Below, in pieces: positions 49,706 to 64,000 of a stretch of DNA of 64,000 nucleotides. Location: NCBI GenBank assembly GCA_007120035.1, contig SKON01000013.1:1-64000 (forward strand). The letters are read 5' to 3'. The position numbers were made by a program, and so were the translations under genes. The notes below the pieces were generated by a model, which ran no database searches, was not told where the DNA came from, and saw only the letters and a list, made by a program, of their open reading frames with translations. The stretch comes from Myxococcales bacterium. Its GTDB lineage: Bacteria > Myxococcota_A > Bradymonadia > Bradymonadales > Bradymonadaceae. The first letter of the stretch is position 1. Each line of letters starts with the position of its first letter.

Positions 49706-50371
49706 ATGCTGCTGCGATTCTCTCAGACACTGGCCACGTTCTCCATCGCCCTCCTCTTGACGGGCGCCACCTGCGCCGAGCCCTCGACCGAGGTCTCCGA
49801 CAAGTCCGAAGAGACCGAGGAAACCGACGAGCAAGGCCTCACCGCCGATCCCCCCACACCGGTCGCTCCCTCCCCGGATCCCGTCGAGCCCGCTCCTGCC
49901 TACGAAGAGGTCGAGATCCTGTGGGATGAGGCTCGCGACGCCCATCGCATCGATCCGGCGCGGATCTCCGAGGCCTCCCGACAGGCCGCCACGGAGTCCC
50001 CGGTCCCGGTCCTCCTCCCCGACGATGACGAGCTCCTGGCCGCCGCACAGATCACCTCCGGCCCTACCTGGTACGCCGTCAACATCCCCGCCGAGGGCCA
50101 CGTGATCACCATCCACGGCACCAACGTTGTCCACCCCATGCCCGGGCTGACCACCAAGGAAGAAGCTGGTGAGCCGATCCTTCCTGACGGCGACGAGGAG
50201 CTCCGCGTCAGTCGCACCCACGGGATCATCAACGTCTCCTTCCAGCGGTTCGGGGCCGCCTATTCCCTGGACATCGACTGCCAGAACCCCCACGAGAACC
50301 CCCATTGCGCCGAAGATGACTACGCGCTCTCCCTGATCGACGGCGCCGGCGTCCTGGATCTGCAGCCATGA
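49706..50371 (+). CDS. Secreted protein of unknown function with acidic linker
   Basis: A 221-residue protein with a hydrophobic signal (FSIALLLTGATCAEP, about residues 12-26); the Cys is preceded by Thr rather than Gly/Ala/Ser, so lipidation is uncertain. Residues 28-65 are Glu/Asp/Pro-rich linker. The C-terminal 120 residues look like a small beta domain (VNIPAEGHVITIHGT and AYSLDIDCQNPHENP with paired Cys). Family unknown. Its TGA overlaps the next ATG (50368), so it is probably co-translated with the M23 peptidase and may assist it. Confidence 0.72.
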   Translation: MLLRFSQTLATFSIALLLTGATCAEPSTEVSDKSEETEETDEQGLTADPPTPVAPSPDPVEPAPAYEEVEILWDEARDAHRIDPARISEASRQAATESPVPVLLPDDDELLAAAQITSGPTWYAVNIPAEGHVITIHGTNVVHPMPGLTTKEEAGEPILPDGDEELRVSRTHGIINVSFQRFGAAYSLDIDCQNPHENPHCAEDDYALSLIDGAGVLDLQP

Positions 50372-51786
50372 AGCCACTGACTGGCCGAGCGTTCTTCCCG
50401 ACCCTCCTCCTGGTGGCCTTCTCCCTGCCGATGGCCGGCGAGTCCGCGGCCCAGGAGTTCACCTACCAGCCACCGGGGACCCTGGTGGACGGCAGCGGCA
50501 CGGGCCGCGTCGATCACGAGGTCTATGTCCCGGGGATGCGATTCCCCATCGAGAACTCTCCGGCCTACCCCAACTCCCAGGTCTGGGGTCACGGCGGCAT
50601 GAACGGCCCCGGCGGCGGCCAATGCCACGCCGACAACTACTCCTACCCCTGGTGGGACAACTACTGCGAGACTCGCCAGTGGACCATGCCCCTCTGCCCC
50701 GGCGGCACGGGCCACCAGGGACAGGACATCCGCCCCTCCACCTGCGAGGACAAGGCCCACTGGGCTGTGGCCGCCGAAGACGGCACCATCACGGGCATCG
50801 GCACCTATTCGGTGAACCTGATGACCGCCGACGGCACTCGCCATCGATACCTCCACATGGATCCCCCCACCCTGGCCGTGGGCGTCGGCGATACCGTCCA
50901 GAAGGGTCAACGCCTGGGCCTGGTCTCCAACGCCTTCGGCGGAACCCCCACCACCATTCACCTCCACTACGACATCCAGCGAAACGTCGCCCCCCACGGC
51001 ACGGTCTACGTCCCCACCTACATGTCCCTGGTCCGGTCCTACCAGGATCTGATCGGCCAGCCCGAGACCCCCTGCGGGTTCATCGGCGCCACCGGCGGAG
51101 TGATCGACAACCAGGACGACTGCTTCCGTCTGATGGGCAACATCGGCACCTGGCGCACCGAGTCCTCCGGTCATGACGGCTCCCTGTACTGGACCTACGC
51201 ATACGACGGCGCCCAACCCGACGGCTACGCCCGGTGGACCCTCCACATCGAGGAACCCGGCGACTACGAGGTGGCGGTCTTCATCACCCCTGAGTTCGCC
51301 CAGAGCACCCAGACCCGGTACGTACTCCGAGCGGGCGGATCCAACCAGGAACTTCGCCTCGATCAGAGCGCCGCCGACGGCTGGACTTCCCTGGGCACTT
51401 TTTCCTTCGCTGGCGACGACGACGAGTGGCTCGAGATCTACGACAACACCGGCGAACCCTTCGCCGACCGCCTCCAGTTCGTCGCCGACGCCCTCCGCCT
51501 CTCCCCTGACCTCCCCGACGAACCGGGCGCTCCCGACGCCGGCCCCGACACCCCCGACGCGGGCTCCCAGACCGACGCCGGTCTCCTCGACGACGCCGGC
51601 CCCGACCCGGCCGCCACCGACGCGAGCCACACCCAACGGGTCACCACGAGCTCCTGCTCCACGGCCCCCGCCTCCCCCTCCCCGCTCCTCTTCATCGTCG
51701 TCGGCGCAGGCCTTCTACTCGTCCGGTGGCGACGGATCTACGGCCCCCACGATACAGCCCACCCGGTTTTCTGGCGGGCCAAATGA
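50368..51786 (+). CDS. Secreted M23-family (LytM-like) peptidase with MYXO-CTERM-like tail
   Basis: A 472-residue exported protein with signal peptide ending at ESAAQ. The peptidase domain has the zinc motif HxxxD (His116, Asp120 in GHQGQDI) and HLHYD (His198-Asp202), as in LytM-type endopeptidases that cut peptidoglycan cross-links. A beta-sandwich region follows (about residues 260-390), then an Asp/Ala/Pro/Gly-rich linker, then CSTAPASPSP, hydrophobic PLLFIVVGAGLLLV and RWRR, a MYXO-CTERM-like signal. Unusually, 16 more residues follow the Arg cluster, and this end overlaps the neighbouring minus-strand gene by 72 bases. Confidence 0.88.
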   Translation: MKPLTGRAFFPTLLLVAFSLPMAGESAAQEFTYQPPGTLVDGSGTGRVDHEVYVPGMRFPIENSPAYPNSQVWGHGGMNGPGGGQCHADNYSYPWWDNYCETRQWTMPLCPGGTGHQGQDIRPSTCEDKAHWAVAAEDGTITGIGTYSVNLMTADGTRHRYLHMDPPTLAVGVGDTVQKGQRLGLVSNAFGGTPTTIHLHYDIQRNVAPHGTVYVPTYMSLVRSYQDLIGQPETPCGFIGATGGVIDNQDDCFRLMGNIGTWRTESSGHDGSLYWTYAYDGAQPDGYARWTLHIEEPGDYEVAVFITPEFAQSTQTRYVLRAGGSNQELRLDQSAADGWTSLGTFSFAGDDDEWLEIYDNTGEPFADRLQFVADALRLSPDLPDEPGAPDAGPDTPDAGSQTDAGLLDDAGPDPAATDASHTQRVTTSSCSTAPASPSPLLFIVVGAGLLLVRWRRIYGPHDTAHPVFWRAK

Positions 51787-52851
51787 GCTACTGGGCCGAA
51801 CGCGTCCTCGCTGGTCCATGGTCAAGTCTCCTTCCAACCCACTACAGGCTGGCTGTAGCTCGTTGACCGCGTCTACACGATTCCCGACGAAGAAAAAACT
51901 AAAGAGACTCTCCGTGCTTGGCATGTGGGTCTTCGTGGTCCCTCCGTTGTCCTCTAGTCCACCGAGATCCAGGTTCGCCCCGACCATGAAGAAGGCATCA
52001 TCGTCGGACAGCCAGCTCTCGCATGCGTTCGGCACCAGGTTGGTTCGGATCACATAGCCTGTCCCCTGCTCTGGATCGTTCAGCAGCGACGTTACGACCG
52101 CGTGCCCCCCACAGTCTAAAAGACCGTTCCCGTAAAAGAGCGCTCCAACCAGGCTCACGAAAGGACCTGTCCGCCCTTCCTCGAGCCCACGACGCAGCGC
52201 CTCGTCCACGTGCAGACCGAACCCTCCTCGTTCAGCCAAGCCGAGATTCTGCCCCTGGTTCTCCACAACCGTCACGTACCGAAGACGAGCCACCGGCTCA
52301 GAAGTCTCTACCGGCCCCAAGATCAGTACCCCCGCGCCGGCTGCGAACGGTGGGACGGTCCAAGTCGCGTCTTTGCCCACACGATTGCCGCTGACCGTAG
52401 AGTTCTCCATCTCCAACAGGGAATCCGCTTCCACTGCCTCCATCACGATCCCGCCCCCTCCAGCATAGGAATCCAAATCTTCGGCTCCGCCAGAGACCAA
52501 CACTTGATTGCCGGACACCGTCGATCGCTGCAGCCGAATCCGCCCGGTCCCCCGAGCGCTGAGACCACCCCCGACCCCGGCGATCGTCGCGTCATCACCG
52601 CGATTCACAAGCCCTGATCCCAGGGATACATCGATCTCGTTGCCGTCGATGGTCACCTCCTCCATCGTGAGGTCGCTGTCCTCCAGATGAAGGGCCCCGC
52701 CCCGGACATCCATCCCGAACGCTACGCCGCCGGCTTCGTCGATCTCGACCGCGATCTCATTCTCCACAAGCCGGACCCGGGACATCTCCACCACCGAACT
52801 CCGGGCGTAGAGGCTACCCCCACAGGTGATCGCTGGCACCAGAGAACTCAT
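51715..52851 (-). CDS. C-terminal part of a split beta-helix lipoprotein (choice-of-anchor Q-like)
   Basis: 378 codons that lack a signal peptide and begin in mid-domain. Rungs of a parallel beta-helix recur, with SGN-type turns (VSGNQVLVSGG, VSGNRVGKD) and GGAL/GGSL strands. The end, DQRGRVRP then CIVGAVDPS, is the usual close of such polymorphic surface proteins. It is the continuation of the lipoprotein at 52814-53575: the repeat pattern NEIAVEIDE...GGALHL here matches NSIMVTVDE...W in the upstream frame, and a G-run at 52817-52821 lies at the join. Whether it is made at all depends on the frameshift. Confidence 0.65.
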   Translation of the reverse strand: MSSLVPAITCGGSLYARSSVVEMSRVRLVENEIAVEIDEAGGVAFGMDVRGGALHLEDSDLTMEEVTIDGNEIDVSLGSGLVNRGDDATIAGVGGGLSARGTGRIRLQRSTVSGNQVLVSGGAEDLDSYAGGGGIVMEAVEADSLLEMENSTVSGNRVGKDATWTVPPFAAGAGVLILGPVETSEPVARLRYVTVVENQGQNLGLAERGGFGLHVDEALRRGLEEGRTGPFVSLVGALFYGNGLLDCGGHAVVTSLLNDPEQGTGYVIRTNLVPNACESWLSDDDAFFMVGANLDLGGLEDNGGTTKTHMPSTESLFSFFFVGNRVDAVNELQPACSGLEGDLTMDQRGRVRPSSSFGPPENRVGCIVGAVDPSPPDE

Positions 52852-53575
52852 CCACGGTGACCATGATGCTATTGCCCGTCATCTCCGAATCACTGACGTG
52901 CACCTCGCACCCTTCGGCCCGAATCACGCCGCCATACAACTCCAACCCCTGCCCACCGGTCACCTCCGCCCGGTTGTCGCTGATACGGCTGTCGTTGATG
53001 GCCTCGAACTCACCGCCATCGCAATCCACCGCCGCCGGACCCGAGTCATATCGCTCCAGGTTCACGAGCGCCCCATCGTCCAACTCCAACCTCCCCGACG
53101 GCCCGACGTGAATCACGGCCGCCCCGTCCATCTTCACTCCCTGAATCCGAGTCTGCTCCACCCGGACCTCCCCATGCACCTCCACGAGGGGCTCCCCGAA
53201 GGGGTCAAGCCCGGGGCTGGCCTCCACCACCAGGCTTCGGAGCCGAACCGTGGCCCCCTGGCTCACGTTCATCATGGGACCGTCAGCGCCAACCCGCGCT
53301 CCGCCGCCGCCCCCCCGGATCTCCACATTCCGATCCACGTGCAACGCCACCCCATCGCTGGAGACCGCCGCGGTGAACCCACCGGGGACCTCGATCACCG
53401 CACAGCCCGACTCATAGGCATCGGCGATCGTCGCCACCACGTCGCCATCGACAGTGCACCCCGGATCCACAGGTACCTGGTTCTGCTCCCCATTCAAGAG
53501 ATCTGCCGGATCCCCGATACAACCGGCGACCATCAGGACCAGCGCTGCACCAACCAACTCAAAGGTATGTCTCAT
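52814..53575 (-). CDS. N-terminal part of a split beta-helix lipoprotein
   Basis: 253 residues with lipoprotein signal LVLMVAGC (Cys about residue 19), followed by CIGDPADLLNGEQ, a motif shared with the lipoprotein at 53657-55003. The body is beta-helix (GVALHVDRNVEIRGGGGGA, VRVEQTRIQGVKMDG). It ends at TAG 52814-52816, immediately after a five-G run (C-run 52817-52821 on the plus strand); the downstream frame continues the same repeat architecture. Restoring the frame would give one protein of about 620 residues anchored to the outer membrane. Interpreted as a frameshifted, slipping or mis-assembled gene. Confidence 0.68.
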   Translation of the reverse strand: MRHTFELVGAALVLMVAGCIGDPADLLNGEQNQVPVDPGCTVDGDVVATIADAYESGCAVIEVPGGFTAAVSSDGVALHVDRNVEIRGGGGGARVGADGPMMNVSQGATVRLRSLVVEASPGLDPFGEPLVEVHGEVRVEQTRIQGVKMDGAAVIHVGPSGRLELDDGALVNLERYDSGPAAVDCDGGEFEAINDSRISDNRAEVTGGQGLELYGGVIRAEGCEVHVSDSEMTGNSIMVTVDEFSGASDHLWG

Positions 53576-53656
53576 CTTCGACCATCCAGGGCAGAGTTCG
53601 CCCCCCGACCGTAGAACCAGGATAATCCGAATCTTATCCCACTTCCACCCTGCGCC

Positions 53657-55003
53657 CTATCGTTGCCCTTCCCATCGAAGCCGAGGATACGTTTGGGTGG
53701 CACCGTTATGATACCAGATCGTGTCAAGATCCCAGTCCCCGAACTGCGAAGGGTTTCGAAACTCTTCCTCACTCAGGGGTATCCCTATGTGGGTGTCTCC
53801 CGGGTTTCTGGTGCTGTTAAAGAACGACCCATTCACCTGCCCAGTCACCGCCCCTTCCTCCGGGTTCAGCGGCCCCCCTAACAGCCCACCGGAGAGATTC
53901 GCTGCTCCGTCGGCGTCTCTGACCTCCCCATAGGCAAAGGAGTCTTCGATCACACCGTCCTCACCATGCCCACCGACGAGCCCGCCATGAATGTCGCTGC
54001 CTTCGACCGTTCCGTCGGCGTAGGAGTTGATGATGGTTCCCTCGTTTCCTCCCACCAGTCCCCCCACTGCCACCGCGCTCGTCAGAAGGTCAGCTCTGGA
54101 GAAAGACTCGCTGATCTTTCCCTCGCGCACATTCAGACCTACCAGCCCCCCGTATAGAAACGCTTCGCCGACGGAACCACTGGAGTTGATCACACCGAAC
54201 GAGGAAGATCCACGGATCTCCGCGCGGTTCATTCCCACAAGCCCACCGATACCGACGGACCGTCCCTGCATGGTGATCTCCGCCGAGGAGTCGACGATGA
54301 GCGCCGTGTTCGTCCACGACAGTGATAAGCCGACAAGACCTCCGGCAATCGCCACCCGGTTCACTTCGCTGTCCCCCCAAACCGAGGGCGTCGGGCCTCC
54401 GTTAACGTCCACGTTAGAGCTGCGGACGTGGGAGTCACGAATGACCCCCTCGTTCCATCCAACCAAGGCTCCTGCGACGTTTTCAGCTTTCACCGCGGCG
54501 TTCTCGACGATCACATTAGTCACCCTCCCACCCGATCCGAGAGTCCCAGCAAGCGCCCCCACGCGGGTCCCACCACTGATCTCAGGGTCCCAAAGACCCA
54601 GAGCATCGATCCGTCCAGTGACGTTCCCGAAAAGCCCCGCCGCCTCCGTGGTATCCACTCGAAGATTCGAGATCCTGAGTCCATCGCCATCGAAGTCCCC
54701 GGAAAAGGGTGTCTCTTCATCACCGATGGGCTCCCAGAGGTCGGTCAGCGTGATGTTGGCTCCCAGCCCGAAGTCCAGGGCCCAATGCTCTCGAGTCGCG
54801 GCCAGGCGGCGAAGGTCCTCCTCGGAACAGATCACATAGGGAGCCCGCGCCGTGCCTTCCCCACCGCTGTACGCCTCAGCGTCGGACTCGCAGGGATAGG
54901 CTCGACTGCCATCCACGAACTCCGCCGGGTCCCCGATACACCCCATCAGTGCGAGCGCTGACACCACCATGAACCCACCGACAATCGTCTTCCATGTACT
55001 CAT
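53657..55003 (-). CDS. GLUG-type repeat surface lipoprotein
   Basis: A 448-residue protein with lipoprotein signal VVSALALMGC and then CIGDPAEFVDG, the same post-lipobox motif as the split lipoprotein downstream. About eight repeats of GGLVG-type turns follow (AGGLVGLSLS, GGLVGMNRAEI, YGGLVGLNVREG, VGGLVGGNEGTI, HGGLVGGHGED), which are GLUG motifs typical of adhesin-like, IgA-peptidase-related surface proteins. The end has WDLDTIWYHNG and YPRLRWE, a common close of such proteins. A likely adhesin or matrix protein. ATG 55003 places the signal peptide at the N-terminus. It lies 89 bases downstream of the ECF sigma gene, possibly in its operon. Confidence 0.85.
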   Translation of the reverse strand: MSTWKTIVGGFMVVSALALMGCIGDPAEFVDGSRAYPCESDAEAYSGGEGTARAPYVICSEEDLRRLAATREHWALDFGLGANITLTDLWEPIGDEETPFSGDFDGDGLRISNLRVDTTEAAGLFGNVTGRIDALGLWDPEISGGTRVGALAGTLGSGGRVTNVIVENAAVKAENVAGALVGWNEGVIRDSHVRSSNVDVNGGPTPSVWGDSEVNRVAIAGGLVGLSLSWTNTALIVDSSAEITMQGRSVGIGGLVGMNRAEIRGSSSFGVINSSGSVGEAFLYGGLVGLNVREGKISESFSRADLLTSAVAVGGLVGGNEGTIINSYADGTVEGSDIHGGLVGGHGEDGVIEDSFAYGEVRDADGAANLSGGLLGGPLNPEEGAVTGQVNGSFFNSTRNPGDTHIGIPLSEEEFRNPSQFGDWDLDTIWYHNGATQTYPRLRWEGQR

Positions 55004-55092
55004 CGCCACGTGACTCCCGAAACGTCCGCGTTGCTCGAACCCCACCTACGATAGAGCGGATCGACCCGGCTTTCCACCTCAACCCCGCCCGG

Positions 55093-55701
55093 CTACTCCA
55101 CGTCAGTGATGCTCTCGCTCCGCCCCAGATAGGGTTCCAAGGACGCCTGCAAGAAGAGCCGCGCCCGGTGCAGCCTCGTCTTCACCGCTCCCTCGCTCAG
55201 CTCCAGGACCTCACCGATCTCTTTCAGGCTCAGTCCCTCCAGCTCCCGCAGCAGAAAGACGGTCTGGTACTTGGGATCGAGCTCGTCGATAGCCGCGACG
55301 ATCTGCTCCCGAAGCTCCTGGTTCTCGGCTGCCACATCGGCCTGCACTCGCCAGGAAGTAGGCACCGCGAACGCCCCCTCCTCGGGCTCCGGCGCTTCCG
55401 GTGAGAACCCGGTCTCTCGCCGGCGCTGCTCCTTTCGAATCCGCATCAGGGCCGCGTTCACCACTACCCGGTAGATCCAGGTGCCGAGGCGAGCGTCACC
55501 GGCGAAGGTGTGGAGCTTTCGGTAGACGTTCAGGAAGGCGTCCTGCACCACGTCCTGGGCGGCGGCGTCGTTCTTCACCAACCCCCAGGCCAGGCGATAG
55601 GCCTTGTCCTGATGGCGGACCACGATCTCCTCAAAGGCCTCGTAGTCGTCCTCGAGGGCCCGGGAAATGAGCTCCCCCTCGCTGACCTCCTCAAGACCCA
55701 T
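55093..55701 (-). CDS. ECF-family RNA polymerase sigma factor
   Basis: A 202-residue sigma factor of the extracytoplasmic-function class. Region 2 has DDYEAFEEIVVRHQDKAYRLA, AQDVVQDAFLNVYRKL and WIYRVVVNAALMRIR. A linker rich in Glu/Pro (about 98-118) leads to region 4, with ELDPKYQTVFLLRELEGLS and the helix-turn-helix LKEIGEVLELSEGAVKTRLH. No anti-sigma gene is adjacent. The ATG at 55701 overlaps the end of the preceding gluzincin gene by 11 bases, with GGAGG upstream. Regulon unknown; the GLUG lipoprotein downstream may be a target. Confidence 0.94.
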   Translation of the reverse strand: MGLEEVSEGELISRALEDDYEAFEEIVVRHQDKAYRLAWGLVKNDAAAQDVVQDAFLNVYRKLHTFAGDARLGTWIYRVVVNAALMRIRKEQRRRETGFSPEAPEPEEGAFAVPTSWRVQADVAAENQELREQIVAAIDELDPKYQTVFLLRELEGLSLKEIGEVLELSEGAVKTRLHRARLFLQASLEPYLGRSESITDVE

Positions 55702-58441
55702 CACCGCCTGCCTCCATTTGGCGAAACTCGTCGGCCCACTGCGCCTGGCCGAGCTCGTCCATCGCCCGGGCGGCCTCCTGCAGGATCACCTCCCGACGCC
55801 CTGGCGACGCCAGGGAGGCCCGCAAGAAGGCTCTCCGGGCGGCCCCGGCCTCCCGGGCCTTCACTGCACCACGAGCCAACGCCAGATGGGCCTCGGCGTC
55901 CATCGCCGCGATCTCCGTCCACCGCCGGGCGGCGCCCACAGCTCGATCGTAGTCACCGACCTCTTCATAGGCGACCGCCATCCTCCGGGCCAACCCCGGA
56001 TCATGGGGGCGGCGCTCAAAGTACTCCCGTCGAGCCCATCGGACAAACCTCTCCTCCCCGGCCGCCTCGGCCGCCGACATCAGGGTCGACCAGGCCTCGG
56101 GGTCGACCTCGGCCAACATCGCCCCCGAGAGAGCATGCACAAAGGCTTGCTCCGTCTCCTGAGCCAACGTCGACAGGCGCACCATGTCGAGCCGCAGGTC
56201 CAGGCCCTCCACGCCCAGCCCCAACGCTCGCCATCCCAACTCCAGGCCCTCCTGGACCTCCTCCAGTAGCCGATGCAGGTGAACCAGGACCACCAACACC
56301 GCAGGCTCCTCCTCGCCACGGCGCAGGGCGTTCTCCATCTGCAGCCTGGCCTGCTCTCGGTTCCCCTGAAGAACCGCGACGAGCGCCCGATAGGCCGCCG
56401 CCTCCCCACGGGAGCCGTGCTCCACGTCCTCCCCCTGTGCCATCCGCTGCACCCGGGGCCAGTCGATCCACACCTGGGTCAAGAGTCCGGCGTAGCGATC
56501 TTCGAGCCACCCTCGAAACTCCGCCTCGAGCCGGGAAAAGTCGGTCCCCAGAGCCACCTCAAAGACCTCTCCCGTCTCCCGGTGGTCCCCGTAGGCCTCC
56601 AAGATCTCCACGATCGCGTCAAACCCCCGGGTCTCCTCCAGGAAGATCATCACCAGGAGTGACACTTGATAGGCAAGGATCACGTCCAGACCCCTGCCCG
56701 TCATGAACACCTCGTCGAGCTCCCCGATGGACCACAGCCGGTCATGGGCGATCAGCCGAGCGATGTCCACGTCGTGGAACCTCGTCCACGACGGATCCCG
56801 CCGATAGGTCTCGTACTCGGCCAGCCCCTCCGTAAACCACGCCGGCACCCGATAGTCCGAGAGCGCCAGGTGGAAGGAGTGGGCCAGCTCGTGCCACACC
56901 ACAAGCGACCAGTTGAAGTCCCCCTCGGCGGGGTTCCTGGTCAGGATCACCGGCCCGAAGCAGATCCCGTGAGGATCCACGTTCGGCAGCCCCACGCTCC
57001 GTACGGCGAAGCTCTCCCGCTCGGCGTAGACCTCCATCGTCAACGCCGGCAGCACGATCCCGTACCGCTCCTCGAAGTCCTCCAGGGCCTCGCCGACCAG
57101 GGGCTCTGAGAGCTCTCGGATCAGATCGAAGTGATCCACGTGGGCCCTCAGCCGAAACCCCTCGACCTCCATGGTCAGATAATCTCGCAGACCCCGATCG
57201 TAGAACTCGAGCATGTTGTAGACCCGCACGTGGTACGGATCCACTCCGAAGGCGTCCTCCAGGTACCCCAGCCCTCGAGACTCCTCTCCCACCCGGGTCA
57301 AGGCGATGCCGATCCCCGTCAACGACGGAGCGTGCTCACCGTCCCTCTCCAGGGCCTCTTCAAAGAACCGGATCGCCGCTGAGTTTCGCCGATTGAACGC
57401 CGCCGCCTCCCCGGTCCGGCTCAAGAGGTCTGGCCGGCCCGCCCGTCGCTCGTCGAACCGCTCCCGGGTGGCTTGAAACTCCCCATCGCGCCCCAGAAGA
57501 AAGGTCGCCGCTGCCCGCAATGAGAGCCCCTCCGTGTCCAGGGGGGCCCGCTCCAGAAGGTCGTCGGCCTGTCTCATCCCCTCCTCCCATCGCCCCTGGG
57601 CGATCAGGAGCTCCGCCCGGGTAGCCTTGGCCACGGGATCGCCGGGGTAGGCACCCAGAGCCTGATCCACGAGTTCCATGGACCGGGCAAACCGGCCGCT
57701 CCGATAGAACTCGATCCGTGCCATCCCCGCCAATGCCTCCGGGTGATCCCCGTGCCGCTCCAAGACCTTCTCGAAGGCCCCTTCGGCCTCGGCGGTGTTG
57801 TAGTGGCTCCACATCAACTCCCCGAACCGCAGGTTCGCCTCCAGGTGGTCCTCATCGTCCCGCAGAACCGCTCGATAGGCCCGGTTGGCGTCCCGAGGGC
57901 GACCGGCCGCGGCCATAGACCGCCCCAACCACACCAGCTCTTCGGCGTCGGTGATCAACCCGTCGTTGAACCGCCGCGCCGGGGCCTCCAGGATCCCTCG
58001 TCCCTCGTCCTCCTCGCCATCGTCGATCAGAAACGAGCCCAGCCAGAACCGGGTCTCCACCTCCTGGGGCGCCTCAGCCAAGAGCTCCCGCAGCTCCGCC
58101 ACCGCTTCGTCTCGCTCTCCCCGAAACCACCGCAACACCGCTCGATCTCGACGGGCCCTGCGGACCACCTCTGGCCGCCCGCCGGCGTCGACGGCGGCCA
58201 CCAAGAACCGGGCCGCGTCGTCATCCTCGCCACGCAGAAAGGCAAACCGCGCCCGCATTCGCACCGAGTCAGCGTCGTCCCGATCCAGAGCCTGCCGGGA
58301 CGCCTCGGACCACCGCCCGGCGTCCCAGAGCTCCGAGGCGCTCTCCTGAGCGCTCAGCCCCCCTGCGCACAACGAAAACACCACCGCAGAGATCGACGCC
58401 ACCAGGGCCGGGCCTGCTCTCCTGGGCGCACGTAGGGTCAC
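55691..58441 (-). CDS. Exported TPR protein with HExxH gluzincin (peptidase MA-like) domain
   Basis: A 916-residue protein with a signal peptide (VVFSLCAGGLSAQ). Residues about 30-430 are TPR-like repeats (PEALAGMARIEFYRSGRF). The middle holds a peptidase domain with WHELAHSFH (His517, Glu518, His521) and WFTEGLAEYE (Glu538), the His-Glu-His...Glu set of peptidase MA/gluzincins. More TPR-like helices follow to the C-terminus (about 650-916). The start is GTG 58441, two bases after the stop of the upstream lipoprotein gene. It ends inside the ECF sigma gene. A second, membrane-bound protein with the same domain pair lies two genes upstream. Confidence 0.85.
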   Translation of the reverse strand: MTLRAPRRAGPALVASISAVVFSLCAGGLSAQESASELWDAGRWSEASRQALDRDDADSVRMRARFAFLRGEDDDAARFLVAAVDAGGRPEVVRRARRDRAVLRWFRGERDEAVAELRELLAEAPQEVETRFWLGSFLIDDGEEDEGRGILEAPARRFNDGLITDAEELVWLGRSMAAAGRPRDANRAYRAVLRDDEDHLEANLRFGELMWSHYNTAEAEGAFEKVLERHGDHPEALAGMARIEFYRSGRFARSMELVDQALGAYPGDPVAKATRAELLIAQGRWEEGMRQADDLLERAPLDTEGLSLRAAATFLLGRDGEFQATRERFDERRAGRPDLLSRTGEAAAFNRRNSAAIRFFEEALERDGEHAPSLTGIGIALTRVGEESRGLGYLEDAFGVDPYHVRVYNMLEFYDRGLRDYLTMEVEGFRLRAHVDHFDLIRELSEPLVGEALEDFEERYGIVLPALTMEVYAERESFAVRSVGLPNVDPHGICFGPVILTRNPAEGDFNWSLVVWHELAHSFHLALSDYRVPAWFTEGLAEYETYRRDPSWTRFHDVDIARLIAHDRLWSIGELDEVFMTGRGLDVILAYQVSLLVMIFLEETRGFDAIVEILEAYGDHRETGEVFEVALGTDFSRLEAEFRGWLEDRYAGLLTQVWIDWPRVQRMAQGEDVEHGSRGEAAAYRALVAVLQGNREQARLQMENALRRGEEEPAVLVVLVHLHRLLEEVQEGLELGWRALGLGVEGLDLRLDMVRLSTLAQETEQAFVHALSGAMLAEVDPEAWSTLMSAAEAAGEERFVRWARREYFERRPHDPGLARRMAVAYEEVGDYDRAVGAARRWTEIAAMDAEAHLALARGAVKAREAGAARRAFLRASLASPGRREVILQEAARAMDELGQAQWADEFRQMEAGGDGS

Positions 58442-58443
58442 GA

Positions 58444-58971
58444 TTACATCCCGCCGATGATCCGCCAGCGATCCCCTTCCCGAGCCAGTTCCATTCGGTT
58501 GACGTCCCGACCGGCGTCCAGCTCTTCTACGTCGCCGACCCGGAATCGAAAGGAGTACTCAAACTCGAAGTCGATATGAGCCTGGTTGCCGTCGACCTGC
58601 AGGTCCTTGACCAACACCCGATACCGGATCTCCTCGGCGTGTTGAGCCATCAGCTCGAAGACGCTCTCCAGGTCCGACCGGGTCCAGTCGTCCGCCGTGG
58701 TCTGGGTCGTCCCGGCGTTGTCGTAGTATTCGTCGGACACCAGCCGCGTCAGGGTCCCAAAGTCCTTGCTCACCAGCGCCTGACGGTACTGGTAGAGGAC
58801 GTTGAGCACCTCTCGGGCCTCCGTGGTGTCCACGATCTCGGCCTCGGCGTCGATCCGGAAGTCCCGGTCGTCGGGGTAGAGATCGTCGGATCTCAGGTGA
58901 CCTGACCCACAGGCCGTCAACATCAACCCCACCATCACCAACAACCCCAACGCGCTCATCCTGATCGGCAT
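58444..58971 (-). CDS. Small lipoprotein, NTF2/SnoaL-like
   Basis: A 175-residue protein with lipoprotein signal LGLLVMVGLMLTAC (Cys about residue 21). After an acidic stretch, the helix VLNVLYQYRQALVSKDFGTLTRLVSDEYYD, strand IDFEFEYSFRFRV and closing GDRWRIIGGM give the helix-then-beta-sheet pattern of NTF2/SnoaL-like folds; the catalytic role is unknown. AAGGAG lies 7 bases upstream of ATG 58971. It lies between the two gluzincin-TPR genes and probably acts in the same envelope pathway. Confidence 0.82.
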   Translation of the reverse strand: MPIRMSALGLLVMVGLMLTACGSGHLRSDDLYPDDRDFRIDAEAEIVDTTEAREVLNVLYQYRQALVSKDFGTLTRLVSDEYYDNAGTTQTTADDWTRSDLESVFELMAQHAEEIRYRVLVKDLQVDGNQAHIDFEFEYSFRFRVGDVEELDAGRDVNRMELAREGDRWRIIGGM

Positions 58972-59040
58972 GCTTTGCTCCTTCACGTGTCGTCGCCGTC
59001 CCAAGCCTACGGGAGTGACAAACCGGGCCTCGTCGAGTTC

Positions 59041-61350
59041 CTATTCCTCGCCATCTTCCAGGGACTCGGACCAGTCCAGACGCTTCAACCACAACCGGGC
59101 GGCCTCACGGTATCTCGTGATCTCCGAGAGGGCCAGATCTTCAAAGATCTCTCGGGCCAGCGTCGGCTCGCCCGCCTCGTAGTAGCTGTGACCTAGCATT
59201 AGCCACGCCTCGGCGTCCAGAACTTCGACCCCCATGGCGCCGGCGGCGTCCTCCAGATGCTCCCGGGCCTCCTCGTAGTGCCTCCCGGCCCACAGCCGGC
59301 GCCCCAGAAGATAGGCCGCTTCCGAACGATGGGGCTCCTCCCGTCGCCATCGGGTCAACAGATACATCGCCCGAACCCCGTCCACCCCGTCCACCAGGAG
59401 CTCCCGGGCGGCCCCTCCCCCGTCATCGCCGACCAATCGGCTCTTCATCACCAGATTGCGCTCCTGAGCGACGGGCACCCCCAGCCCCAACGCCTCCTGG
59501 TAGACCCGGCGCGCCTCGACCTCCGATCCCGCCTGCCAGTGGAGATCCCCGGCGAGCTCCAGGAATTGGGCTCGCTGGACCAGAGAGATCCCCTCAGGGG
59601 GCTCCAGAGCGATCGAGAGGGCTTCCTCTCCCCGCTCCATGCGCCGCAGCAGCCGTCCGTACTCCAACCTCACCGCGACGTCCTGAGGGTCGTCAGCGAG
59701 CACGTGCTCATAAGCCGACGCCGCCCGGCTCAAGAGCCCGGCCCGGGAAGCTCGCCGCGCCGTCAGGCGCCGCTCCGCCAGGGCCCTGGCGCAGACCTTC
59801 CCGAAGATGCTCGGCCGATCAAACCGGAACCGGGCTACCTCCTCCTGGCGCTCCGTCAGCTCGATCCGGTCCAAAAACTCCTCCCACTCCGCGATCAGCT
59901 CCTCCACGGGTCGCCCGTAGGCCCCATGAAAGTCGCCGTCTCCGTAGGCCACCTGAAAGGTGTCCATCCCCCAATGATCCACGAGATACCGCACGAAGGA
60001 GCCCATCGCCGTGTACGCCGGCCCCGACGCCTCCGTCCAGAACCCTCCCACCCCGAGGATCGTTCGCAGGTCGGGACCGATCCCCAGCCGCCGCATCGCC
60101 GCCGACGCCTCATGGGGGGTGAAGTCCTCCGCCGACCACTCCGCCGCCGAGGCGATCCCCTCCACGAGCCCCATATTTACCCCCACCAACCCCTGCATAC
60201 TCAACTTAAGCGGCCCTCGCCCAAAGGGCGCCGTGAACAGGTGAGCCAGCTCGTGGGCCAGCATCCGATCTCCCGTTCCGCTCCACAGAATATGCATCTC
60301 TCCCAGCCAGATCTTAGCCACCATCGTGTCCCGGCCCCCCATCAGCCGCCCTTTGGCGTCCCGGTTGGGGTACACGAAGCTCTTCAGCTTCTCCCCTCTC
60401 TCCGCCACCGGATCGGTGCCGAAGAACTCTCGCATCTGGTGGTATCGAAACTCGTGATCCTCGATCAGGCCCTCCAGATTCCCCCCGTACCCCATGGCCT
60501 CCGGGTAGTAGATCACGAAGTGCTCCGTCTCCACCTCCCCGCCCAGCTGGGCCTGCACGTAGCCCCGATCGATGTACAGCCCCGCCTCTTGTCGGTGAGC
60601 GAAGCTGACCACCAGCAGGATCGCCGCTCCCACCGTCAGCGCCACCTGCCACCCGAAGTGCTGCCCCCGACGGATCCGGAAGGTCGCCTCCAACCCGGCC
60701 ACGATCACCACCACCGCCAGGGCGTGAATCCCCCGGAGCACCACCAGGCTCATAGGCACTCCCAGTGCCTCGTCGTAGATCGACCCCCCGAAATACCCCA
60801 TCCACATGTGGTGGCCCACGATCGACGGCCCCAGCGCAAGATGCCCGAGGAGCACCGCCGTATCCAAGAGGGGGATCGCCAGGGCCAACACCCAGATCCG
60901 CCGAGGCTTCCCGGCCAGCGCCGTCGCCGCCACCCACCCACAGGCCTGACCCACCAACACGGCGAAGAGCGGGATCAGCCCCCAGAACAGAAACCCCGCC
61001 ACCCAATCGCAGTTGGGCACCCGAAACCCGTTCAGGCTCAACACCAACAGGGGCCCCACCAGTAGGGAGAGGTGGATCAGCGCCAGGCGCCCGAAGTCCC
61101 CCGAAGGACCCCGGTTCCGCTCCTCGGAGAGGGGCGCCTCCACGGCCCCGGAGGTCACGGCGAAGACGGTCAAGACCAGCGCCAGAACGCCCCCGACCAC
61201 CCCGAAGATCGCCGCCGATTCGTACCCCAAAAGGTTCAAGAGCGGCACGAAGGAGAGCGCCACAGCTACGGCGATCACCAGCCCGTGGGCCGCGATCACC
61301 GCCCGCGGGTACTTCTCATTGGGCAGTCGGCTGATGAGTCGGGTCCACAT
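59041..61350 (-). CDS. Polytopic membrane protein with HExxH gluzincin domain and TPR tail
   Basis: A 769-residue protein. The first 265 residues hold about seven membrane helices (AAHGLVIAVAVALSFVPLL, LALIHLSLLVGPLLVLSL and others). Then comes a soluble peptidase-like domain with LAHELAHLF (His366, Glu367, His370) and NMGLVEGIASAAEW (Glu397). The C-terminal 250 residues are TPR-like repeats. The metal ligands are complete, so it may be an active zinc protease. The start at ATG 61350 overlaps the DUF192 gene by 35 bases. Membrane anchor, protease domain and TPR tail in one chain is an unusual layout. Confidence 0.82.
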   Translation of the reverse strand: MWTRLISRLPNEKYPRAVIAAHGLVIAVAVALSFVPLLNLLGYESAAIFGVVGGVLALVLTVFAVTSGAVEAPLSEERNRGPSGDFGRLALIHLSLLVGPLLVLSLNGFRVPNCDWVAGFLFWGLIPLFAVLVGQACGWVAATALAGKPRRIWVLALAIPLLDTAVLLGHLALGPSIVGHHMWMGYFGGSIYDEALGVPMSLVVLRGIHALAVVVIVAGLEATFRIRRGQHFGWQVALTVGAAILLVVSFAHRQEAGLYIDRGYVQAQLGGEVETEHFVIYYPEAMGYGGNLEGLIEDHEFRYHQMREFFGTDPVAERGEKLKSFVYPNRDAKGRLMGGRDTMVAKIWLGEMHILWSGTGDRMLAHELAHLFTAPFGRGPLKLSMQGLVGVNMGLVEGIASAAEWSAEDFTPHEASAAMRRLGIGPDLRTILGVGGFWTEASGPAYTAMGSFVRYLVDHWGMDTFQVAYGDGDFHGAYGRPVEELIAEWEEFLDRIELTERQEEVARFRFDRPSIFGKVCARALAERRLTARRASRAGLLSRAASAYEHVLADDPQDVAVRLEYGRLLRRMERGEEALSIALEPPEGISLVQRAQFLELAGDLHWQAGSEVEARRVYQEALGLGVPVAQERNLVMKSRLVGDDGGGAARELLVDGVDGVRAMYLLTRWRREEPHRSEAAYLLGRRLWAGRHYEEAREHLEDAAGAMGVEVLDAEAWLMLGHSYYEAGEPTLAREIFEDLALSEITRYREAARLWLKRLDWSESLEDGEE

Positions 61351-61963
61351 CAAAGAGCTTCATCCTCGATCCGGCTTGAATCCCGACCTCCCCGGCCAGG
61401 CCTCCATTGATCTCCAGGACGTACCGCGACAACCCATCGACGCTTCGTGGGGTCTCCGTCAGCGGCTCGGCCCTCTCCACGATCCCCACCACGACGCCTT
61501 CGCCGTCGATAAAGATCATGTCCAGCTCGATCAGGGTGTTTCGCATCCAGAAGCTCAGCTCCCGATCGCTGGGGTAGATAAAGAGCATACCCCAGTCATC
61601 GCGCATTTCCTCCCGATACATCAACCCCCGCCTCTGCTCCTGGCGGCTGACGGCCAGCTCCAGATAGAAGCTCGCCAGCTCCTCCCCGTCAGGGGAGTTG
61701 AAGGTGGCTCGAGGCGTCGACTCCGTCACTTCTCCTGTGATCGCTGGCGGCACGGCGCACTCTCCCTCGATACAGCGAAGATACCGATCACAGTGGTGAT
61801 CCCTGTGACACTCCGGAGCGCTCTCGGACTCGCCGCCGGACCCACCGGCCCCGGCGGTCCGCTCCGGCGTGGTGACCGGCCCGCCCCGATCACAACCGAT
61901 GATCACAGAACAAGCCATAATCAGGAGGAGCGTCCCTGTCGCGCCGACCATCCCTGGATTCAC
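61316..61963 (-). CDS. DUF192-domain lipoprotein with Cys-rich segment
   Basis: About 215 residues, with lipoprotein signal LLLIMACSVIIGC. A short Cys-rich segment (ECHRDHHCDRYLRCIEGEC) is followed by a DUF192 domain: RRGLMYREEMRDDWGMLFIY, the LSFWMRNTLIELDMIFID core and YVLEINGGLAGEVGIQAG. DUF192 proteins are small, exported and of unknown function. The start is uncertain: GTG 61963 has GAGG upstream, with GTG 61969 and ATG 61951 as alternatives. It is second in the operon, after the HEAT-repeat gene. Confidence 0.82.
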   Translation of the reverse strand: MNPGMVGATGTLLLIMACSVIIGCDRGGPVTTPERTAGAGGSGGESESAPECHRDHHCDRYLRCIEGECAVPPAITGEVTESTPRATFNSPDGEELASFYLELAVSRQEQRRGLMYREEMRDDWGMLFIYPSDRELSFWMRNTLIELDMIFIDGEGVVVGIVERAEPLTETPRSVDGLSRYVLEINGGLAGEVGIQAGSRMKLFDVDPTHQPTAQ

Positions 61964-61973
61964 GCACACCTCA

Positions 61974-64000
61974 TCAGATCTGCTGAAGTTTGGTCCGCAA
62001 GAACTCTTGGACCTCCGGATCTCGCTCCCGCTCCAGTCGCTGCTCCAGCTCCCCCCGGGCCGCCGCGCCCTGCAGCCGGGTCAAAGACTCGATCGCCTCC
62101 CGCCGCACCTCGGGCTCGGGATCTCCCAGCGCCGACGTCAGAAGTGGCCGAGCGCTGCTATGCCCGGTGTCCGCCAAGGCCCGAATCGCCGCGATCCGCA
62201 GCTCCGTGTCTTCCGCGCCCACCTGCAGGGCGATGTTGGTCACCGCCAACTGGCTCTCGAACCGACCCAACTGGGCCAGCGCGATCAACCGCACGTGCTG
62301 CTGGGAGTCGTTGACGGCGCCGCTCAAGGTGGCCAGATGCTGGCGCACGGCGGCCTCGTTGTCGCGATCCAGGAAAGTCGTGGCCGCTCGGATCGCGCTC
62401 CCCCGAATCAGGTGGTTGTCGTGGCCCACCATTCCTCGGATCCGCTCCGCCGCCCGGGCGTCCTCCCGCTGCTCCATGGCGTCAATGGAGGCAGCCACCA
62501 CCCCGGGATCGCCGTCGTCGAGGTATCCCTCCAATGTGTCGGCGTGGGCGTCAGAAAAACTCCCCAGCGCCAACGCCACCTTTCGTCGCACCTCGGCGCT
62601 GGAGTCCCCGGTCATCCCGCTGAGCACCTCCAGAGCCGGGTCGGTCCCCAGCTCTCCCAACGCCAGCGCCGACGCCCCCCGGATCGCCGCCGACCGATGG
62701 CTCGCCCCGGTTTGAATCGTCGACAGCACGTCGTTACCGCCCTGGGCGGAACCCCGCTCTCCCACGGCCTGGTAGGCGAGTTCTTGGACCGCCACCGAGC
62801 TGGCCCGGGTCTGCTCCAGGATGGTCTCCCAGGGCTGGGCCACCATCAACTGATAGGCGGCGTCTCGCAGCAGCTGAGTCTCGGGCTGACTCTCCGACGC
62901 CGAGAGCAACGCCGGCGCCGCCTCGATGTCGCCGCGCTCTCGCAGCGCCGCCGCCGCGGCCAGCCGTTGGCCCCGGGAGTCGGAGGTCAAGAAGACCTCC
63001 ACGGCCTCTCGGGCTGCGGGGATCGGCAAGGTCGCCATCGCCGCGATGGCCTGGTTGGCGTGACCCTCGGACCGATTCGACGCGATATACTGATAGCCCG
63101 CCAGCCGAACCGCTGCAGGCTTCCCGTCCCCGGCCAAATCCTGGGCCATCTGCAAGCGCACCGCCCCATCGACGTCGCCGTCGCCCAGGGCCGCCACCCG
63201 CGGCTCATGGCTCCCCAGAGCCTCCAGGGACTCCGCGGCTGCCGTCGCCACGGCGTCTCGCTCGTCGCGCAACGCCTCGCTGAGCTTCTCCACGGCCCGG
63301 GCGTCTTCCCCGAACTGCTGGAGCGCCGTCACCGCCGCCTGGGCCTCTTCATCGCTCCCGTGATCTACGAGATGCATCGGCTGCAGCACCCGGTATTGAG
63401 CGTCCCGGGAGCTCCCCAAAAACTCCGCCATGCTCTTGGCCAGGGTCTGGTTCGACTCCTCTGCCAGCGCCGCCGCCACCCCCTGGAGCACGTCGCCGTT
63501 GTTCTCCTGGCCCTCCAGCGCTCCCAGCGCTTCCTGACGCACCCGCGCCGAGGAGTGGGTCAGAAGTGGCGTCACCTTCGCGACCTGAAGCTCCCCGAGT
63601 TCCGGCAGCACCCGGAGCACGGACCGAACCGTGTGCTCCACCCCGGACTCCAGATAGGAGTACACCCCGTCTACCAGGGTAGCTCGATCGCTTCGCCACT
63701 GGGCCTGTACCTCCGAGACCGGCACCAGCGTATCGTCGGGCATCCGCACCTGGGCTGTCGTCAACGGTCCCGGCGGCACCACCTTCCACAGGGGCACCGT
63801 CAGGCTGTACGCCGCGAACGGGACGTCGGCCCGGGTCAACCCGCCCTCCACAACCCCCGGGAAATGAACCTCCGGGATCCCCATCTCCGTCAGGGTGTAC
63901 ACCGACTCAGCGATAATGATCGGCGCATAGCTGCGAGCGTTGGCCGCGATATGCACCTCGACGGTGGCCCGGTTCGGCAGCTGCCCTCGGACGTTGGCGT
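61974..64000 (-). CDS. HEAT-repeat protein, 5' end beyond the window
   Basis: At least 674 residues; the frame stays open to the right edge, so the start is outside the window. The visible N-terminal part is beta-rich (NRATVEVHIAANARSYAP), and from about residue 130 the rest is a run of HEAT-like helical pairs with Ala/Leu/Glu patterns (SARVRQEALGALEGQENNG, EVRRKVALALGSFSDAHAD, PEVRREAIESLTRL). HEAT repeats form protein-binding solenoids. It is the most upstream visible gene of the minus-strand operon that ends with the ECF sigma factor, 10 bases or fewer before the DUF192 gene. Confidence 0.85.
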   Translation of the reverse strand, partial: ANVRGQLPNRATVEVHIAANARSYAPIIIAESVYTLTEMGIPEVHFPGVVEGGLTRADVPFAAYSLTVPLWKVVPPGPLTTAQVRMPDDTLVPVSEVQAQWRSDRATLVDGVYSYLESGVEHTVRSVLRVLPELGELQVAKVTPLLTHSSARVRQEALGALEGQENNGDVLQGVAAALAEESNQTLAKSMAEFLGSSRDAQYRVLQPMHLVDHGSDEEAQAAVTALQQFGEDARAVEKLSEALRDERDAVATAAAESLEALGSHEPRVAALGDGDVDGAVRLQMAQDLAGDGKPAAVRLAGYQYIASNRSEGHANQAIAAMATLPIPAAREAVEVFLTSDSRGQRLAAAAALRERGDIEAAPALLSASESQPETQLLRDAAYQLMVAQPWETILEQTRASSVAVQELAYQAVGERGSAQGGNDVLSTIQTGASHRSAAIRGASALALGELGTDPALEVLSGMTGDSSAEVRRKVALALGSFSDAHADTLEGYLDDGDPGVVAASIDAMEQREDARAAERIRGMVGHDNHLIRGSAIRAATTFLDRDNEAAVRQHLATLSGAVNDSQQHVRLIALAQLGRFESQLAVTNIALQVGAEDTELRIAAIRALADTGHSSARPLLTSALGDPEPEVRREAIESLTRLQGAAARGELEQRLERERDPEVQEFLRTKLQQI

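Follow-up and report, generated by a model that had tools for sequence, protein, structure and literature searches.

Related systems and overall reading

Envelope proteolysis is well known in Escherichia coli and largely unmapped in the Myxococcota, a phylum that includes predators and multicellular forms. HtpX is an inner-membrane protease of the M48 family in E. coli. BepA is a periplasmic zinc metallopeptidase with tetratricopeptide repeats (TPRs) that acts on stalled outer-membrane proteins in quality control (PMC7950410, PMC8423444), and its third zinc ligand is a Glu (H140-E201) located approximately 61 residues after HExxH (PMC7950410).

The window analyzed here, which covers positions 1 to 64,000 of a contig of 120,007 bases, contains six adjacent minus-strand genes encoding, in transcription order, a HEAT-repeat protein, a DUF192 lipoprotein, a seven-transmembrane (TM) gluzincin-TPR protein (membrane protease), an NTF2-like lipoprotein, an exported TPR-gluzincin-TPR protein (exported protease), and an extracytoplasmic function (ECF) sigma factor. 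The best explanation of this set is a single transcription unit for envelope proteolysis. Like BepA, the exported protease is an exported zinc metallopeptidase fused to TPRs in a diderm envelope, with Glu as the third ligand. However, it has TPRs on either side of the peptidase domain and does not belong to M48, and the spacing from HExxH to Glu is 17 residues (H521-E538) in the exported protease and 27 residues (H370-E397) in the membrane protease, versus 61 in BepA. The membrane protease is a polytopic inner-membrane metalloprotease and a possible functional counterpart of HtpX, although it has seven TM helices with conserved loop motifs of its own, a C-terminal TPR solenoid, and a peptidase domain that is predicted to be periplasmic and belongs to a different family. 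The sigma factor resembles self-regulated ECF factors of the sigmaE type in containing only regions 2 and 4 and in that a putative -35 element of the GGAAT type precedes the operon to which it belongs, but it is encoded last in a protease/lipoprotein operon, without an adjacent anti-sigma gene.

Overall, these genes are best explained, with a probability of roughly 0.5, as a self-inducing operon for envelope quality control or maturation, comparable to sigmaE with BepA and HtpX and using peptidases of the MA clan rather than M48. The function is proposed by analogy, and the safest claim is that the locus represents a conserved unit for envelope proteolysis, in which two probably active zinc peptidases of apparent MA type carry TPR solenoids. 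A literature search turned up no paper that links TPRs with peptidase MA or gluzincin domains in the Myxococcota.

Organization of the operon

All six genes had been recognized in a first-pass annotation of the window, which described them as partly overlapping and separated by at most 69 bases. This description agrees with the intergenic distances of 4, -35, 69, 2, and -11 nt measured from HEAT to sigma, and the overlap between the exported-protease and sigma genes is real. The HEAT gene starts at contig position 64250, 250 bp past the window edge. Direct reading of the region upstream of it revealed a short gene for a zinc-ribbon-like protein and a hairpin that is rich in GC and has a T run, so that HEAT likely opens the operon. 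The same annotation had named a promoter and terminator between each gene as the finding that would break up the module; predicted internal promoters and terminators were no more frequent in the operon than in shuffled sequences.

The gene-neighborhood search that it had proposed revealed that both gluzincin-TPR architectures, the NTF2-like lipoprotein, DUF192, and HEAT occur together in order throughout the taxonomic order. In the Bradymonadales/Lujinxingiaceae, the order HEAT, DUF192, membrane protease, NTF2-like lipoprotein, and exported protease is kept wherever contigs are long enough, with G004 as the exception, and it persists between genera whose proteins are only 28 to 57% identical. 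As judged from these sequences, the grouping is far beyond chance since the same order recurs across genera of the order, and the operon almost certainly represents a functional unit. In G004 (L059), HEAT, DUF192, the membrane protease, and the NTF2-like lipoprotein are kept, and the exported protease and the linked sigma are lost.

The membrane protease

The membrane protease (59041..61350, minus strand) is a protein of 769 aa. Its AlphaFold model (mean pLDDT, 93.4) consists of a TM region at residues 13-251, a mixed domain with HExxH at residues 262-512, and TPRs at residues 521-769. The seven TM helices (60598..61314, minus strand) carry conserved C114, G189, Y192, and D193 in predicted periplasmic loops; the gluzincin domain (59815..60567, minus strand) carries an invariant Y446 and is followed by the C-terminal TPR solenoid (59044..59790, minus strand). 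The HExxH motif (H366, E367, and H370) lies at 60241-60255 and the third ligand, E397, at 60160-60162, both on the minus strand. K/R outnumber D/E in the predicted cytoplasmic loops, and the loop at residues 174-199 is acidic; this charge pattern places the peptidase domain outside. The model and the charge bias of the loops confirm the earlier proposal of seven TM helices followed by a soluble domain, and the seven helices most probably anchor the peptidase domain on the periplasmic side of the inner membrane.

Across the phylum, 40 loci show no variation at H366, E367, H370, E397, Y446, C114, and Y192 and almost none at G189 and D193. The membrane protease matched PF13485 weakly, with 13 of 34 orthologues at E values of ≤1 (best, 7.8e-4), and its arrangement of seven TM helices, peptidase domain, and TPRs corresponds to no named family in Pfam or NCBIfam. 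Divergent homologues with 23 to 24% identity were found in metagenome-assembled genomes (MAGs) mostly from animal guts (L170-L175); their zinc ligands are kept, and His299/Glu300 are not conserved.

The exported protease

The exported protease (55691..58441, minus strand) is a Peptidase_MA_2 protein of 916 aa with a signal peptide. Its peptidase MA domain (residues 415-655; 56477..57199, minus strand) has an invariant Y591, with HExxH (H517, E518, and H521) at 56879-56893 and the third ligand, E538, at 56828-56830, both on the minus strand. Matches to PF13485 were obtained for 15 of 16 orthologues at E values of ≤1e-3 (best, 1.8e-13), and the window copy reached 1.6e-7 and 31.8 bits, against a cut-off of 32.4. 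The PF13485 match, together with an invariant HExxH and a downstream Glu as third ligand in the orthologues, places the protein in the Peptidase MA superfamily, and the signal peptide, the TPR models and fold, and the zinc peptidase domain give it a BepA-like architecture. Its structural model was fair (pLDDT, 86.8). The exported peptidase should be free in the periplasm or located further out.

The catalytic residues assigned in the first-pass annotation, His366/Glu397 and His517/Glu538, are at the positions given there and are invariant in 23 and 22 orthologues of the order and in 40 and 20 phylum-wide homologues, respectively. Both peptidases are very probably active and extracytoplasmic, and the TPR solenoids of both very likely bind substrates or partners. 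A profile alignment of the two peptidase domains was weak but collinear (E value, 0.0012; probability, 20%); in it, HExxH, Glu, and Tyr line up. No Peptidase_M48 was present among the reported Pfam hits for either protease, and searches of the PDB with peptidase-only profiles found nothing, including no M48 structure. Fold searches of the PDB with both models retrieved only TPR solenoids at low TM-scores and did not place the peptidase and TM domains. A PDB match to the Myxococcus anti-sigma factor DdvA (8rot) was rejected, with an RMSD of 29.5 Å over a helical solenoid.

The HEAT-repeat protein and the lipoproteins

The first gene of the operon (61974..64000, minus strand, continuing to contig position 64250) encodes an exported HEAT-repeat protein of 758 aa with a signal peptide ending in AWA. 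A GerMN-like reading of its N terminus was dropped, as none of 16 orthologues showed GerMN among the Pfam families listed. The DUF192 lipoprotein (61316..61969, minus strand; lipobox VIIGC) matched PF02643 in Pfam at 4e-30 and 104 bits, against a cut-off of 27, and has relatives in the PDB (3m7a and 3pjy). Its gene overlaps the membrane-protease gene by 35 nt, and an overlap of 32 to 38 nt is found in many genomes of the order. The NTF2/SnoaL-like lipoprotein (58444..58971, minus strand) has a lipobox cysteine, Cys21, that is invariant in orthologues, and the lipobox cysteine of the DUF192 protein is likewise kept. The window copy matched SnoaL_3 of Pfam below the cut-off (6.2e-4), and 13 of 18 orthologues matched (best, 1.3e-5). 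The two lipoproteins and the HEAT-repeat protein may serve as adaptors of the proteases. TPR and HEAT proteins are generic, a point against the quality-control reading of the operon.

The ECF sigma factor and the upstream motif

The last gene (55093..55701, minus strand; its start overlaps the exported-protease gene by 11 nt) encodes a sigma factor that matched PF04542 (5.7e-16) and PF08281 (5.1e-19) and exceeded the cut-off of TIGR02937; it contains regions 2 and 4 and no region 3, which identifies it as an ECF sigma factor. The gene is linked to the operon in G000, G002, G006, G007, G009, G011-G018, and G020. It is inverted in G009 and absent from the locus in G001, G003, G004, G005, G010, and G025, which have weaker homologues elsewhere (≤50% identity). 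The contigs of G008, G019, G022, and G023 stop short of the sigma position, and the best homologues elsewhere in these genomes are 33 to 43% identical. Sigma-linked genomes occupy at least four places in the membrane-protease tree, on an unresolved backbone. The sigma factor is best read as a lineage-specific regulatory addition that is dispensable to the core operon; its membership in the module, as first proposed, holds in that an ECF-like promoter element tracks the linked gene and fails in that the gene lies outside the conserved core.

The promoter-like element, TGGAATGA-N18-TTATA, is common to the region upstream of HEAT in the sigma-linked loci, often with CGTC before TTATA, and as a sequence pattern it has the layout of an ECF promoter. 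At the window locus it reads GGAATGATCTTGATTAGAGCGCCCGTTCTG (contig 64294-64323, upstream of the HEAT start), with GGAATGA intact and the second half degenerate (TTCTG for TTATA). Readings of the motif as a sigma54 or sigma32 element were dropped on spacing. With up to two mismatches, GGAATGA-N18-TTATA occurred in all 11 linked loci with a readable HEAT upstream region, as well as in G019, where the sigma position is off the contig, and it was absent from all seven other loci (G001, G003, G004, G010, G022, G023, and G025); this comparison is circular to the extent that the motif was read from some of the tested loci, and it covers a small number of lineages, some of them related to each other. 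On both strands, 840 kb contained just some 13 other matches with ≤2 mismatches, and a backward control pattern gave 0 to 3 matches per genome. Allowing ≤1 mismatch in a longer form of the motif, G009 and G011-G014 hold two to three sites each, one of which is the HEAT site, and G002 has seven motif sites, with two mismatches in its HEAT site. The linked sigma factor would transcribe its own operon from GGAATGA-N18-TTATA upstream of HEAT, giving positive feedback, and such self-regulation is probable.

Several minor features were also noted. In three Lujinxingia genomes (L206-L208), a second conserved site lies upstream of a zinc-ribbon/kinase-like gene near yhbY, and its neighbors give no functional clue. 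Just upstream of the presumed operon promoter, L001:14396-14620 encodes a zinc-ribbon-like protein of 74 aa with a weak YdjO match. L001:14730-14960 (contig 64730-64960), which adjoins short GC-rich repeats, is a degenerate fragment resembling the C terminus of the L002:312-2081 lipoprotein and is probably a gene remnant.

The presence of the sigma gene in the same operon, its overlap with the exported-protease gene, the polytopic nature of the membrane protease, and the ECF-like promoter would all suit a signaling module, in which the ECF sigma factor is freed once an anti-sigma factor has been cut by the membrane protease, perhaps also by the exported one, as in sigmaE/RseP or PrsW. However, no anti-sigma gene is adjacent to sigma in 14 loci, where the upstream neighbor is the exported protease, and the proteases occur without a linked sigma gene both in the phylum and in the order. 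In addition, HExxH is part of the soluble domain that follows the seventh helix and is predicted to be periplasmic, rather than part of a TM helix, which separates the membrane protease from the intramembrane proteases RseP and PrsW. A signaling module is thus improbable, and the earlier proposal that the protease pair senses and the sigma factor responds finds no visible link at the locus.

Downstream of sigma, the neighbor in the 14 loci is mostly a convergent dnaJ gene or unrelated genes. In the window, dnaJ is approximately 5.4 kb from sigma, with lipoprotein genes between them. This stretch (50368-55045) contains M23/golvesin, beta-helix, and GLUG lipoprotein genes that are absent from relatives, and these genes look like a local insertion, since in most relatives sigma and dnaJ are immediate, convergent neighbors.

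Distribution and proposed role in the Myxococcota

The membrane protease was found in 25 of 26 genomes of the order, with the match in G005 being a C-terminal fragment at a contig edge, and the exported protease was found in 22 of 26; both are single-copy there, except where contigs break or where, as in a few genomes, a second, weak homologue occurs. At the class level, the membrane protease was present in 54 of 57 genomes and is single-copy in nearly all of them, the matches in G005 and G024 being partial or TPR-only. The two mostly single-copy families, with intact active sites, extend to 120 of 189 sampled Myxococcota genera for the membrane protease (including a few weak, TPR-only matches) and 40 of 109 for the exported protease, which makes them candidates for core envelope maintenance. 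Outside the class, the two genes are mostly at separate loci, and the membrane protease occurs in 35 of 36 genomes with the exported protease versus 22 of 78 without it (genomes G057-G170; Fisher p, 7e-13, a value that ignores phylogeny). The two proteases, whose co-occurrence across the Myxococcota the first-pass annotation had proposed to check, are thus found together far more often than by chance on the phylum scale. In sequence terms, the five-gene core is conserved, two peptidase families with fully conserved zinc sites recur across the Myxococcota, and both families are older than the operon.

The Myxococcota are rich in secreted hydrolases, and one of the proteases is exported; a digestive role, in which the pair degrades prey or environmental protein, is nonetheless very improbable. 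The membrane protease stays anchored in the inner membrane, the single-copy state applies to both families, and the length of the TPR arrays and the lipoprotein partners are in keeping with specific binding. The linkage of sigma, lon, and dnaJ varies between lineages, as would be expected of a neighborhood carried by descent in one family without a functional link. This explanation can hardly be accepted, given the gene order kept between diverged genera, the strong co-occurrence of the proteases, and the repeated pairing of NTF2, in other classes, with one or the other protease at their separate loci: the NTF2-like lipoprotein gene adjoins the exported protease in L184, L185, L192, L193, and L195 and is convergent to the membrane protease in L117, L122, and L136.

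In 12 of 40 sampled loci, the gene immediately preceding the membrane protease, in the same orientation, is lon, and the gap between the two is mostly short. This association points to proteostasis, although the lon and dnaJ neighbors may be coincidental. It also bears on a role in a surface or predation apparatus, in which the proteases would mature or secrete specific surface or outer-membrane components such as adhesins, lipoproteins, or a killing apparatus. The operon's two lipoproteins and its exported repeat proteins, the GLUG/beta-helix lipoprotein genes after sigma in the window, and the placement of close relatives in a group described as predatory (PMC7460792, PMC7188933) would fit such a role. 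However, the neighborhood has no conserved gene for an adhesin, a secretin, or a pilus, relatives lack the GLUG genes and mostly have dnaJ next, and lon favors proteostasis, so that a surface or predation role is unlikely, if still worth considering.

In the quality-control reading, the operon products may check or mature proteins that are exported or destined for the outer membrane, a task that falls to BepA and HtpX in E. coli; a specifically BepA/HtpX-like function, drawn by analogy, is tentative, with chances slightly short of even. A more elaborate, Myxococcota-specific system of two stages could also be imagined, in which the conserved periplasmic loops (C114 and GxxYD) of a 7-TM gluzincin that represents a new class form an entry site for membrane-bound substrates, the NTF2-like lipoprotein hands them over to the exported TPR-gluzincin nearer the outer membrane, and a dedicated, self-amplifying sigma factor was added in the Bradymonadia; such an arrangement is rather unlikely. 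The operon is a good lead on envelope upkeep in the Myxococcota, in which both protease families are uncharacterized, and the recurring partners of the proteases provide a short list for genetics. The named relatives include soda-lake MAGs and the cultured Lujinxingia vulgaris TMQ2 (L146), and the presence of the full operon in the latter makes the question directly testable. Near the lon-membrane-protease locus in L116, L119, L129, and L133, gene pairs encoding ExbB/TolQ- and ExbD/TolR-like proteins were observed in mirror-image arrangement.
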